A DNA stretch of 64,000 nucleotides, taken from the NCBI RefSeq assembly GCF_023347295.1, contig NZ_CP094469.1, forward strand, positions 186,001-250,000. The letters are read 5' to 3'. Positions 48,079-53,105 of this stretch are shown here, in pieces. Each line of letters opens with the position of its first letter. Position 1 is the first letter of the stretch. A program made the translations under genes and the position numbers. This DNA comes from Faecalibacterium sp. I3-3-33. GTDB lineage: Bacteria > Bacillota > Clostridia > Oscillospirales > Ruminococcaceae. The notes under the pieces were generated by a model. That model was not told the origin of the DNA. It did no database searches and worked only from the letters and a program-made list of their open reading frames with translations.

Positions 48079-50034
48079 TTACACCGCACCCAAAATGGTG
48101 GCGCTGTACGGCGCAAGGGTGGTTTTGTTTGTAAAAACGCGGCTTGCCCCCCGCCACAGGCTGGAAGAAGTGCCATCGCTCAGCAGCTTCCACTGCCCGG
48201 CAGGCAGGGCAACGGTGCGGGTGGTGTCGGTGGGGTTATAAAAGACACACAAAGCGCTCCATGCCGCGCCGTCTCCCCAGACGGCGGGCAGCGTCCAGCC
48301 CACCAGCGGCTGCTCCAGCGCAAAGAACTGCAAAGCCTCCGGGGCGTGACGGTCGGTGCTGCCCAGCCGCGGAAAGGCTGCCCGCAGCGCCAGAAGCCCC
48401 CGGTAGTAGTCCACGAGGGCGTGGTACTGCTCGGCGCGGTTCCAGTCCAGCCGGTTCAGGGCGGGAGAGGAGCGGTAGCTGTTCCCTACCCCCTTTTTGG
48501 TGCGGGCGAACTCCTCGCCTGCCTGCATGAAGGGCAGGCCGAAGCTGGTCAGGTAGATGCCCGCCGCCAGCCGGTTCTGCGCCAGCGCCACGGTGTCCCG
48601 GGCGGTGAACTCCGGCTTTTCGTAGCGGACGCAGAGCAGCTTGTCCCACAGGGTAAAGTTGTCGTGGGCGGAAACATAGCTCACGATCTGGCTGGGCGCG
48701 TGGGGCGGCAGACGGTCGCTGCGGCACCATGCCGCCACCGCTGCGCCGATATCCCAGAAACTGCCGGGCTTGCCCTCCACATAGCCCGGCTCCCGGGCAT
48801 CGAAGCAGCCGCCCTTGATGGCGTCCCGGGTGTCGTCACAGAAGATGCCTACCCGCTCGTTGAGCATGGCAAGGTTCGCCTTGTTGGCCTCGTACCGGTG
48901 CAGCTGGCTGGCACCGCCCTGCCACGGCTCACCGTACAGCAGGATGTCCCGCCCGCCGGGCAGGGCATCCAGCGCAGTGCGCACCGCGTTGATGCTCTCG
49001 GCGTCGTACAGGCCCATCAGGTCGAACCGGAAGCCGTCAATGTGGTACTCCTTCGCCCAGTAGAGGATGGAGTCGATGAGGTACCGCCGCGCCATGGGGC
49101 GTTCGGTGGCAAACTCGTTGCCGCAGCCGCTGCCGTTGGAAAAGCTGCCGTCCGGGTTTTGCCGGAAAAAGTAGTACGGCACGGTATTGTTTAAGGGGTT
49201 CTCGGTGCGGTAGGTGTGGTTATACACCACGTCCATCACCACCCCGATGCCCGCCGCGTGCAGCGCGGCGATCATCTCCCGGCACTCCCGGATGCGCACC
49301 TCGCCCCGGGTGGGGTCGGTGGAGTAGCTGCCCTCCGGCACGTTGAAGTTGGTGGGGTCGTAGCCCCAGTTATACTGCCGCAGCAAAGGCCTTGCCTCGT
49401 CCACGCTGCCAAAATCAAAAATGGGCATCAGCTGGACGTATTTTACCCCCAACCGCTTGAGGTAGTTCAGGCAGGTGGGGTGGATGCCATCGCCGTGCAG
49501 GGTAGTGCCCTGCTGGGTAAAGGCCATATATTTGCCCCGCCACGCCGGGCGCACCCCGCTGGCGGCATCCTGCGAGAAGTCCCGCACGCTCACCTCCCAC
49601 ACGGCGCGCTGTGCCGGGGGGATATTGGGGCGCACATCCTGCTCCCACCCGGAGGGCGCGGTGCGGGCAAGGTCTACGATCATGCTGCGCACGCCGTTTA
49701 CCCCCGCCGCCCGGGCGTAGGGGTCGCCGGTCTCGCGGGTGATGCCGTCCACGGTGACGGCAAAGGTGTAATAGCGGCCGTGCTGCTCCCCGGGCAGCCA
49801 GACGCTCCACACCCCCTGCGCCCCGCGCACAAGGGGCTTTGTGCCCAGCACGGCACTGCCGTCTCCCTTGTGGTATAAGGTCACGGTGACTGCCTCGGCA
49901 GTGGGTGCCCACAGCCGCAGACAGGTGCCGCCGGGGGTGTAGTCCGGTCCAAGGGGACCGGTATAGTAGTTTTCGCAGTGGAAGGGCTCGTTTTCAAACA
50001 GTGTTTTCCACTGGGCAGGCGTTTTTGCAGCCAT
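48079..50034 (-). CDS. pulA: Type I pullulanase
   Basis: 651 aa GH13 enzyme cleaving alpha-1,6 branches of glycogen/pullulan. An N-terminal CBM48-like domain (LRLWAPTAEAVTVTLY) is followed by the pullulanase hallmark YNWGYDPTNFNVPEGSYS, the four GH13 regions (DVVYNHT; GFRFDLMG with the nucleophile Asp; LLYGEPW with the acid Glu; SAHDNFTLWD) and a C-terminal beta domain. No signal peptide, so it is intracellular. I choose ATG 50034 because AAGAAGGA lies 12 nt upstream but touches the alternative ATG 50046. It complements MalQ. Confidence 0.95.
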   Translation of the reverse strand: MAAKTPAQWKTLFENEPFHCENYYTGPLGPDYTPGGTCLRLWAPTAEAVTVTLYHKGDGSAVLGTKPLVRGAQGVWSVWLPGEQHGRYYTFAVTVDGITRETGDPYARAAGVNGVRSMIVDLARTAPSGWEQDVRPNIPPAQRAVWEVSVRDFSQDAASGVRPAWRGKYMAFTQQGTTLHGDGIHPTCLNYLKRLGVKYVQLMPIFDFGSVDEARPLLRQYNWGYDPTNFNVPEGSYSTDPTRGEVRIRECREMIAALHAAGIGVVMDVVYNHTYRTENPLNNTVPYYFFRQNPDGSFSNGSGCGNEFATERPMARRYLIDSILYWAKEYHIDGFRFDLMGLYDAESINAVRTALDALPGGRDILLYGEPWQGGASQLHRYEANKANLAMLNERVGIFCDDTRDAIKGGCFDAREPGYVEGKPGSFWDIGAAVAAWCRSDRLPPHAPSQIVSYVSAHDNFTLWDKLLCVRYEKPEFTARDTVALAQNRLAAGIYLTSFGLPFMQAGEEFARTKKGVGNSYRSSPALNRLDWNRAEQYHALVDYYRGLLALRAAFPRLGSTDRHAPEALQFFALEQPLVGWTLPAVWGDGAAWSALCVFYNPTDTTRTVALPAGQWKLLSDGTSSSLWRGASRVFTNKTTLAPYSATILGAV

Positions 50035-50171
50035 GGTCAGTTTCATTCCTTCTTAAAAGATTCGTTATATTCAGTGTATCGGACAACAGGCTTTTTTTCA
50101 AGAGGAAATCAACTTTTACCATGGAAATCAATTTTCCGTAGGAAACCAGCGCGGCAGCTGCCGTTCTCGGT

Positions 50172-50294
50172 TATGATCCCTTTCCATGAAAATGGGGTTC
50201 AGAAACGCCCGCAGGCGTTTCTGAACCCCAAAATTTAAAATTATTTTTCCGCTGAAAATGCCCAAAGCACACGCGGAGGCCATTCAAAATCGTC
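50172..50294 (-). repeat. Type I cassette after the LysR-phosphatase gene
   Basis: Minus-strand sense copy starting directly at the stop codon (TGA then GACGATTTTGAATGG), CAGCGGAAAAATAATTTTAA, 16-bp perfect hairpin (50194-50209 with 50214-50229, loop TGCG), tail TTTTCATGGAAAGGG. It is more diverged at the tail than the other copies. Confidence 0.87.
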
Positions 50295-52052
50295 TCACTC
50301 CAGATACATCCGCCGCAGCCGCATCAGGCGGGCGGGGGTCAGGCCGTATTCGGCTTCCAGATAGTTCTCGGCGCTGCCGTAGTCCTGCCGGATGGTGCGC
50401 AGCACAAAGGGCGCAGTCTCCGGGTCTACCCCGGCGGAGGTCTGCCAGCGCATCCGCTGCGCCGGGTCGGCGGCGATCTCCGCCGCATGGTCAGCCATGG
50501 CCTTTTCGATCTCGGCGGCGCGGCAGAGGTTGGTGCGGGCATAATCCGCGCAGATGGTCTCGTCCGAAGCACCCAGCGCCAGTAAGATCAGCATGGCAGC
50601 GACACCGGTACGGTCCTTGCCCGCCGTGCAGTGGAACAGGATGGGCGTCTCGCCGGCTTCCAGCGCCCGGAACAGCTCTTTAAACGCCTTGTTGCCGGTG
50701 AGCATCTGCCAGTACATCAGCTGGGTGAGGCTCATCCCGGCGGGGGCGCTCTGCACCAGCCGCTGGATGTCGTTTGGCGAAAAATCGATCTCCTGCCCGG
50801 TGGCATCCCGCAGGCCGCAGATCTGCACCAGCCGTGCGCCGTCCGGCACATAGTCCGGCAGCTTGGCGGCTTCTGCGCCGCTGCGCAGGTCAAGGATGAG
50901 CCGCAGCCCCAGCCCGTCCAGCCGGGCGCGGTCAGCTTCGGTGGTCAGCCGCCCGGTGGGGAAACCCCGGTAGATCTGCCCCCACTTTACGGTCTTGCCC
51001 TCGTCGGCATGGTAGCCGCCCAGCTCCCGGAAGTTGTTGCCGCCCGCAAAGGGCAGCTGGGTGCCCGGGGCGGGATGCTCCGGGGCAGCCTTTGCGGCGG
51101 CGCTGGAAAGCACCGGCGCGGTGTAGAAGGGCTTTGCAGGGCGACCCCGGCGGGGCGGCAGGCTGGCGGTGCTGCCCAGAACCTCTAACAGGTAGCTGCG
51201 CAGCAGGTCGATGTAGGCAGAGCTGGTGTCCCGCCGCTGCACCAGTGAGACGCACAGCGGGGGCATATCTTCCAGCAGCACGTCCCGCACCCGGTCCAGC
51301 TCCCGGCGCGCGCCGGGCTCGTAGCGGGTCAGGCAGGTGCACAGCTGCTCCTGCACCAGATAGTAGGCCTGATAAAAGCTGGGGCCGATCTCGGCGTTGG
51401 GGGCAAAGCCCGCCCGGGCACAGGCTGCCCACAGCGGGCTGAACAGATCCTGCCGCAGGCTGGGCAGCAGCACCCGCTGCCCGCGCAGCTCTGCCAGCGG
51501 GATGCGCTCCTTTTCCCAGAAGGGATGTCCCCGGGGCACCAGCAGGCAGGCGGGGTCCGCCCGCAGGGTGGTGCGCGCCAGCACCGGCGCGGCACAGCCA
51601 AGGTCGATGACCAGACCCGCGTCCAGCTCGCCCTGCTCTACCCCATCGGCCACGGCGTCGTTGTCCAGCAGGCGGAAGCGCATCTCCACATGGGGGTACT
51701 GCTGCCGGAACTTGTCCAGCTGGGTCTCCAGCCCGGGCAGATAGTCCGGCACCAGCGCCACGCTGATGCCGATGCGCACCGGCTGGGCAGACTGGATCTC
51801 TGCCCGCAGCGCAGCCTGCATCTGCTGGAACTGCTCCACTACCGGGGCGGCATGGCGCTGTAAGCTCATGCCCCGGTCGGTGAGCGCCAGCTTGTGGTGG
51901 GCACTGATGAACAGCGGCCCGCACATTTCGGCCTCCAGCGCAGAGATGCTCTGGCGCAGCGCCTGCCGCGACAGGAACAGCCGCTGTGCGGCGCGGGTAT
52001 AATTCATTTCTTCGCACAGGGTCAAAAAGTAGTGCAGCTGGCGGATATCCAT
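50295..52052 (-). CDS. LysR-type regulator fused to a tyrosine/phosphoinositide-type phosphatase
   Basis: 585 aa. Residues 1 to about 60 are a LysR winged helix (MDIRQLHYFLTLCEEMNYTRAA, LSRQALRQSISALE); about 87-290 form the LysR effector-binding fold (VRIGISVALVPDYLPGLE). After a Pro/Ala-rich linker (about 300-330), residues 335-585 are a complete Tyr_phosphatase3-type domain: NNFRELGGYHADEGKTVKWG, YRG, and the P-loop HCTAGKDRTG with catalytic Cys475 and Arg481. One continuous frame, no break. ATG 52052 follows GGGAGGAGA. Ligand, DNA target and phosphatase substrate are unknown. Confidence 0.93.
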   Translation of the reverse strand: MDIRQLHYFLTLCEEMNYTRAAQRLFLSRQALRQSISALEAEMCGPLFISAHHKLALTDRGMSLQRHAAPVVEQFQQMQAALRAEIQSAQPVRIGISVALVPDYLPGLETQLDKFRQQYPHVEMRFRLLDNDAVADGVEQGELDAGLVIDLGCAAPVLARTTLRADPACLLVPRGHPFWEKERIPLAELRGQRVLLPSLRQDLFSPLWAACARAGFAPNAEIGPSFYQAYYLVQEQLCTCLTRYEPGARRELDRVRDVLLEDMPPLCVSLVQRRDTSSAYIDLLRSYLLEVLGSTASLPPRRGRPAKPFYTAPVLSSAAAKAAPEHPAPGTQLPFAGGNNFRELGGYHADEGKTVKWGQIYRGFPTGRLTTEADRARLDGLGLRLILDLRSGAEAAKLPDYVPDGARLVQICGLRDATGQEIDFSPNDIQRLVQSAPAGMSLTQLMYWQMLTGNKAFKELFRALEAGETPILFHCTAGKDRTGVAAMLILLALGASDETICADYARTNLCRAAEIEKAMADHAAEIAADPAQRMRWQTSAGVDPETAPFVLRTIRQDYGSAENYLEAEYGLTPARLMRLRRMYLE

Positions 52053-52175
52053 GGTCTCCTCCCGGGAAAGTTTGTTCTGGAAAAAGAATACCGCTTTTTC
52101 GGCGGAATGTAAAGAGAGGGCAGCAAAAAGCCGCTGCACGGCGACAGCCGTGCAGCGGCTCAGAAACTTGGATGC

Positions 52176-52904
52176 TTAGATCAGGCTCAGAGCCTCTTCG
52201 TCAGCCACCAGAATGAAGTCCGGGTGCATCTGCAAAATGCTTGCGGGCACCTCGGGGGTGACGGGGCCGAAGAAAGCCTTCTTGACGATCTCGGCCTTGC
52301 CGGCACCGTTGACCACCATCAGCACCTTGCGTGCCTGCATGATGGTGCGGATGCCCATGGTGTAAGCCTGCTTGGGCACCAGATCCACGTTGCCGTCAAA
52401 GAAGCGCTTGTTGGCCTCGATGGTCTCCTGAGTCAGATCCACGCAGTGGGTGCCCAGATCAAAGGCATCGTGGGGCTCGTTGAAGCCGATGTGACCGTCA
52501 TGACCGATGCCCAGCAGCTGCAGATCCACACCGCCCACGCTGCGGATGACCTCGTCATAGCGCTTGCACTCGGCCTCGGCATCCATGTTGGTGCCGTCCG
52601 GCAGGTTGATGTGGGCGGGGTCGATGTTCACATGGTCGAACAGGTTGCGGTGCATAAAGCTCCAGTAGCTTTCCGGGTGATCCTTGGGCAGGCCGCGGTA
52701 CTCGTCCAGATTGACGGAGGTGACCTCAGAAAAATCCAGATCCCCCTCGTTGTAGCGCTCCACCAGCTTCTCATAGGTGCCAACGGGGGTGCCGCCGGTA
52801 GCCAGACCCAGCACACAGTCGGGCTTCATGATGACCTGCGCAGAAATGATGTTTGCGGCCTTGCGGGACATATCAGCGTAGTCCTTTGTACGAATGATCT
52901 TCAC
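52176..52904 (-). CDS. nagB: Glucosamine-6-phosphate deaminase
   Basis: 242 aa, the size of B. subtilis NagB. It converts glucosamine-6-phosphate to fructose-6-phosphate and ammonia. Key parts: LGLATGGTPVGTYEKL (phosphate loop), SVNLDEYRGL (catalytic Asp) and LLGIGHDGHIGFNEP (Asp/His/Glu site). The start is GTG 52904 (VKIIRTKD), with AGAGAGGT upstream; no in-frame ATG is suitably placed. No nagA or transporter is adjacent. It lets the cell use host or dietary amino sugars. Confidence 0.95.
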   Translation of the reverse strand: MKIIRTKDYADMSRKAANIISAQVIMKPDCVLGLATGGTPVGTYEKLVERYNEGDLDFSEVTSVNLDEYRGLPKDHPESYWSFMHRNLFDHVNIDPAHINLPDGTNMDAEAECKRYDEVIRSVGGVDLQLLGIGHDGHIGFNEPHDAFDLGTHCVDLTQETIEANKRFFDGNVDLVPKQAYTMGIRTIMQARKVLMVVNGAGKAEIVKKAFFGPVTPEVPASILQMHPDFILVADEEALSLI

Positions 52905-53105
52905 GATAAACGACCTCTCTTCTTCATTTACTCTTTGTGGGTCGTGCACAGCGGCACACGCCCGCATCTGGTTCAAGTTTATCACATTTGCCGACGGAAA
53001 GCCACAAAACGGCACAATTTTTCCGGTTTTCCGTTTCTTTTGGAAAAAGTGCCTTAAAAACCGGTTGAAGTATTGTTCTTTTGCACAAAAGGCGCGCGCA
53101 GGGGG

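Follow-up and report, generated by a model that had tools for sequence, protein, structure and literature searches.

A LysR-type regulator and a Y_phosphatase3 phosphatase joined in a single Faecalibacterium protein

We analyzed a window of 64,000 nucleotides from Faecalibacterium sp. I3-3-33, in which one uninterrupted frame of 585 codons on the minus strand encodes a LysR-type regulator followed by a phosphatase (Table 1); the plus strand of the same interval (50295-52052) is interrupted by stops. The longest form of the frame would start at a GTG at position 52139, yet we preferred the ATG at 52052 since a GGAGG ribosome-binding site precedes it in all 14 fusion genes compared, the window's included. 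A preliminary description of this DNA had placed a LysR region and a complete phosphatase in one polypeptide, with an intact P-loop containing Cys475 and Arg481. This was borne out on both counts: HTH_1, LysR_substrate and Y_phosphatase3 all score above their Pfam cut-offs within a single 585-residue product, and the P-loop residues lie at the positions claimed. It is almost certain that the fusion protein is a genuine product with two domains.

Table 1 Features of the fusion locus and its immediate surroundings (window coordinates).
Feature	Position	Strand	Basis
LysR-Y_phosphatase3 fusion gene, 585 aa	50295..52052	-	ATG 52052, stop 50295-50297; translation, Pfam, orthologues
HTH_1 DNA-binding domain, residues 3-61	51870..52046	-	Pfam 51.0 bits, cut-off 26.6
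LysR_substrate effector domain, residues 89-292	51177..51788	-	Pfam 76.6 bits, cut-off 28
Linker, residues 293-333	51054..51176	-	Basic; sequence comparison
RRGRPAKPFY in linker, residues 301-310	51123..51152	-	Alignment of 14 fusions
Y_phosphatase3 domain (PF13350), residues 334-585	50298..51053	-	Pfam 201.3 bits, cut-off 22.2
P-loop HCTAGKDRTG, residues 474-483 (Cys475, Lys479, Asp480, Arg481)	50604..50633	-	Sequence
Ribosome-binding site GGAGGAG	52056..52062	-	Sequence, 14 fusions
Promoter block CTTTACA-N8-AAAAAGCGGTATTCTTT, 31-62 nt before ATG	52083..52114	-	Conserved, 14 fusions
Upstream neighbor: glucosamine-6-phosphate isomerase (nagB-like)	52176..53015	-	Pfam
Downstream neighbor: pullulanase-like glycoside hydrolase (CBM_48, Alpha-amylase)	48079..50046	-	Pfam

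The linker between the two halves carries a positive net charge in all three fusions checked and is lacking from all six unfused LysR paralogues compared. Its block RRGRPAKPFY, which we take to be AT-hook-like, is found in 13 of the 14 fusions, the remaining one reading RRGRSAKPFY; no AT-hook was among the nine Pfam families matched by the fusion protein at E ≤ 1. Separate translation of the phosphatase was considered and rejected: none of the starts between codons 286 and 352 follows any of six Shine-Dalgarno-like words in any of the 14 fusions, so that a stand-alone phosphatase product is not expected. A strong hairpin shortly after the stop codon of the fusion gene (window 50194-50229), the same one being found in genomes G406 and G418, is a likely terminator.

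Next, we considered how widely the fusion occurs. It was detected at full length and without stops in 14 of 31 Faecalibacterium genomes, at 81–100% identity with the window's own counted, and is therefore neither an error nor specific to one strain. The preliminary description had considered a stop or frameshift near residue 300, which this recurring frame excludes, as well as orthologues that are always two genes; an unfused close relative of the phosphatase (63% identical to that of the fusion, E 1e-20) is instead present in only two of the 31 genomes (G329 and G413), and in the other 15 nothing matched the phosphatase at 1e-20. Six peptide patterns run against named genomes, an approach that detects close relatives only, returned eight loci, all of them in Faecalibacterium. 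F. prausnitzii ATCC 27768 is among the closest named records, matching at 99% over 585 residues; records of F. hattorii and F. longum carry the fusion as well. Among genomes ≥90% complete and ≤5% contaminated, 14 of 22 carried the promoter block that marks the fusion. With 14 genomes carrying the fusion, eight named records doing so independently, and nothing found in favor of an assembly or sequencing artefact or a chance open frame, we consider the probability of such an explanation negligible.

The N-terminal half shares HTH_1 and LysR_substrate, in the normal order and at the normal length, with LysR-type regulators; unlike CidR, GltC, AlsR and CynR, however, the fusion extends for about 290 residues beyond the LysR part. 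Among NCBIfam LysR models, the best 25 of 55 matches all fell far under their cut-offs (e.g., 97.2 of 415 bits for CidR). A transcription factor and an enzyme fold are likewise combined in one chain in regulators of the MocR/PdxR type, in which a GntR HTH is fused to an aminotransferase fold and the enzyme fold mainly senses ligand. These differ from the fusion in both the HTH family and the enzyme, and neither GntR HTH nor aminotransferase families are among the nine Pfam families that the fusion matched at E ≤ 1.

In the C-terminal half, the P-loop signature HCXXGKDR[TA]G is kept and WPD is absent in 14 of 14 fusions, as in MptpB, Lmo1800 and Lmo1935 of the Y_phosphatase3 family. In PMC3091653, this signature without WPD is that of atypical lipid phosphatases, the published members of this kind act on phosphoinositides, and protein phosphatase activity is also reported for relatives. 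Atypical lipid phosphatases are described there as consisting of the phosphatase domain only, unlike the fusion, in which the phosphatase comes after a regulator. The “tyrosine-type phosphatase” of the preliminary description is a complete Y_phosphatase3 domain that, in all 14 fusions, bears the signature of the atypical lipid phosphatases and not that of classical tyrosine phosphatases. No signal peptide was seen by eye on the fusion protein. Relatives of the phosphatase half in the PDB are the C. difficile PTP (8dhi) and M. tuberculosis PtpB (1ywf), and the phosphatase half of an AlphaFold model based on nine close sequences, with a mean pLDDT of 49.8 that is too poor for the LysR half or for inter-domain contacts, matched 8dhj and PtpB. 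The phosphatase half is likely an active enzyme.

To what substrate it might be directed was approached through the neighborhoods of unfused relatives, examined at 20 same-family loci of the 23 outside the genus (those in G130, G057 and G024 sit on short contigs and were excluded), with neighbor families checked by Pfam on one copy each. A class III FBPase gene was present at 15 of the 20 loci, purine nucleoside phosphorylase and cytidine deaminase at 14, a Bmp-type substrate-binding protein at 13, and fruK with pfkA at three. The phosphatase itself was called at 16 of the 20, and in ten of these the order fbp-phosphatase-nucleoside phosphorylase was directly adjoining; at L106, where the stretch ends near the phosphatase gene, none of these neighbors is present. 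No kinase was recognized beside the unfused phosphatases at the loci read, and regulators were found there only singly, i.e., TetR in G329 and a DeoR-like gene in L089. Since FBPase, nucleoside phosphorylase and fruK/pfkA genes lie close to unfused relatives, we infer that the substrate would be a sugar or nucleotide phosphate. Of the targets originally proposed (a protein, phosphoinositide or sugar phosphate), these neighborhoods make a small phosphorylated metabolite more likely than a protein. Two points speak against a sugar or nucleotide phosphate: the fusion is far from both fbp and deoD in Faecalibacterium, so that the role of the phosphatase, no longer beside either gene, may have changed, and the relatives studied in PMC3091653 act on phosphoinositides. 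Separately, a recurring fbp (class III)-phosphatase-deoD arrangement, often with cdd and a Bmp-type lipoprotein, was observed in relatives of Faecalibacterium (L087-L105).

The origin of the fusion was examined through trees of both halves. The phosphatase tree comprised 35 rows, i.e., the 14 fusions, G413, G329, and 19 further loci, L106 having been omitted from the 20 because it was cut short. Overall, the 14 fusions formed a single branch (support 100/99), joined next by the unfused phosphatase of G413 (97/88) and then by that of G329. Given this shared branch, with G413 and G329 as its nearest unfused neighbors, the fusion most likely arose in one event, and the genomes found added neither an unfused nor a broken member to its branch. 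In the LysR tree, unfused LysR genes of Faecalibacterium fall together with the fused LysR half; the root is unreliable, the unfused group arising inside the fusions on a long branch. Six full-length matches from Faecalibacterium, 43–49% identical to the LysR half, were the closest unfused proteins found for it. Five of these six proteins end at 293–296 residues (the stretch of L068 is cut before the stop), and, unlike the fusion, they are without linker and without phosphatase. At six of seven loci (L063, L066, L067, L069, L070 and L071), the unfused LysR gene is divergent from an FAD/FMN flavoprotein-like gene, checked by Pfam at L063, L066 and L071; no such gene was recognized at L068, a 6-kb contig. 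If translation of the unfused G413 phosphatase starts at the Met ahead of the domain, its N terminus is MNQHPAPGAELPFEGG, at the place of EHPAPGTQLPFAGG in the fusion. With the unfused LysR proteins ending where they do and the G413 start aligning at the domain, the fusion is, on this alignment, a union of two essentially whole proteins via about 33 further residues. The G329 LysR gene, on the minus strand of L069 (33-922) and close to the end of a contig, is spread over two frames, through either a frameshift or an assembly fault.

A conserved block precedes all 14 fusions, with three genomes deviating from the pattern by one or two letters, and it is kept even where the genes farther upstream vary. 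It resembles a sigma-70 promoter whose spacer is conserved, an arrangement that would fit autoregulation, and the fusion is predicted to have a conserved promoter of its own. When 31 genomes were searched for the block with ≤3 mismatches, the 14 fusion promoters and one other site (G419, three mismatches) were recovered, while a reversed control pattern yielded zero matches; found only once outside the fusion promoters, the block offers no readable regulon. A similar block, beyond the three mismatches of the search pattern, precedes the unfused phosphatase gene of G413, and the block therefore need not be a LysR operator. By eye, it also resembles the promoters of unfused LysR genes (TTTACA, with AAAAG in the spacer).

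The surroundings of the fusion vary between genomes. The order nagB-fusion-pullulanase was observed in the window, L031 and L033; nagB also lies before the fusion in L032, without a pullulanase match within the stretch. In L034 and L035 the order is nagB-fusion-RNase Y-like gene, while L036, L037 and L038 have other upstream genes and again an RNase Y-like gene after the fusion. The unfused phosphatase of G329 also stands before RNase Y (checked by Pfam); in G413, two large genes precede it close to the end of a contig. The position before RNase Y looks ancestral, judging from the one unfused genome G329.

Selection was then evaluated by the Nei-Gojobori method on the 91 pairs that the 14 fusions form, with median omega values of 0.076 (HTH), 0.105 (LysR_substrate), 0.162 (linker) and 0.292 (phosphatase). 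Purifying selection acts on both halves, the phosphatase half being the faster to change (0.292 vs 0.105). In the species pair G000 and G404, identity is 93.8% for the fused LysR half and 76.9% for the fused phosphatase half, compared to 91.5% for FBPase, 89.5% for purine nucleoside phosphorylase and 72.4% for an unfused LysR paralogue. In this pair the fused LysR half is thus as conserved as two core enzymes, which, together with the retention of the fusion in many species, suggests an important control point. Pairs of fused phosphatases gave omega values of 0.34 and 0.39 (two distant pairs) and 0.087 (a close pair), and unfused phosphatases in three pairs of relatives gave 0.32, 0.23 and 0.13, so the fused phosphatase evolves at or slightly above the rate of its unfused kin and not as a decaying gene would. 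A decayed phosphatase was rejected on the intact P-loop in 14 of 14 fusions together with an omega of 0.29.

We favor, as the most economical reading, a bifunctional regulator-enzyme whose two halves share a metabolite, and give it an even chance. Specifically, the N-terminal 292 residues would form a complete LysR regulator, probably responsive to a small molecule, which would probably control its own promoter and some unlinked target, while the C-terminal 250 residues would form an active phosphatase, probably acting on a small phosphorylated compound from sugar or nucleoside metabolism. Their union would most likely couple the two, either with the enzyme producing or consuming the effector close to the sensor or with the enzyme gated by the binding of effector. 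The sequence itself establishes a single frame with two complete and conserved domains under selection, from which we infer DNA binding, autoregulation, catalysis, substrate and the coupling of the halves. Tentatively, the protein may constitute a one-protein metabolite feedback circuit, in which the phosphatase makes or destroys the LysR effector and the LysR half sets the amount of protein via the conserved promoter; this circuit would have arisen once in Faecalibacterium from a flavoprotein-linked LysR type and a phosphatase that, in relatives, serves an FBPase/nucleoside-salvage cluster.

It is also possible, though we would not expect it, that the fusion is one of convenience, in which both halves work without mutual signaling and only co-expression or stoichiometry is fixed. 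The faster change of the phosphatase half (omega 0.292 vs 0.105) would be consistent with this, as would the similar promoter of the unfused G413 phosphatase, as if a LysR frame had been inserted behind an existing phosphatase promoter. However, a linker block kept as RRGRPAKPFY in 13 of 14 fusions goes beyond the needs of a mere tether, and the fusion branch is without unfused or broken members among the genomes found. A chromosome-tethered protein phosphatase, brought to DNA-bound phosphoproteins by the LysR half and an AT-hook-like linker, would make use of the basic block RRGRPAKPFY, but the AT-hook label found no Pfam match. Protein and lipid phosphatase activity of relatives (PMC3091653) would suit such a role; the unfused relatives, however, lie among metabolic genes, with no kinase recognized and regulators only singly, and we deem it improbable. 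That the phosphatase domain is a dead appendage or a ligand-binding regulatory domain is very improbable, given the P-loop Cys, Lys, Asp and Arg in 14 of 14 fusions, the purifying selection, and rates close to those of unfused phosphatases. In its favor, the phosphatase half is the less conserved one, and many regulators have turned enzyme folds into sensors.

Regulators of the LysR type belong to the most common ones in bacteria, and their effector is often unknown. For the bifunctional regulator-enzyme proposed here, the fused phosphatase narrows the effector search, its substrate or product being a candidate effector. Many species of this dominant commensal of the human gut retain the fusion.

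Beyond the genus, matches were found in 27 of 396 genomes of the family sample (at most three candidates scored per genome), the full-length fusion only in Faecalibacterium. A phylum sample of 398 genomes and a class sample of 391 were searched with PF13350, and no LysR-phosphatase fusion outside Faecalibacterium was found in the samples of 396, 398 and 391 genomes, which overlap and are not exhaustive. A LysR profile matched none of 25 PF13350 loci at 1e-3, while two fusion controls and LysR controls matched; these loci were all 23 frames of ≥450 residues except the window's own, plus two shorter ones, with the frames of L134, L138 and L140 truncated C-terminally by the limits of the stretch, and six control genomes with PF13350 matches were left out of this check. 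No published LysR-phosphatase fusion was found, which is weak evidence as literature coverage is incomplete; LysR and Faecalibacterium have zero occurrences in the main text of PMC3091653.

Other partners of Y_phosphatase3 were detected. A complete domain is joined to TrmD (tRNA (guanine-1)-methyltransferase, PF01746) on the minus strand in L124:1625-3211 (G837) and L125:1546-3243 (G892), two genomes of one family in the class sample. A GH16-like domain and a copper amine oxidase N-terminal repeat accompany Y_phosphatase3 on the minus strand in L120:1493-3586 (G1158) and L123:469-2547 (G1174), in a protein that is probably secreted. With TrmD and GH16-type partners in two genomes each, Y_phosphatase3 is prone to fusion, and the LysR fusion is to that extent less exceptional; its interest lies in its conservation across 14 genomes and in a regulator as partner. 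Frames of similar length to the GH16-type fusion were also observed in G1139 and G952 (L121, L122).
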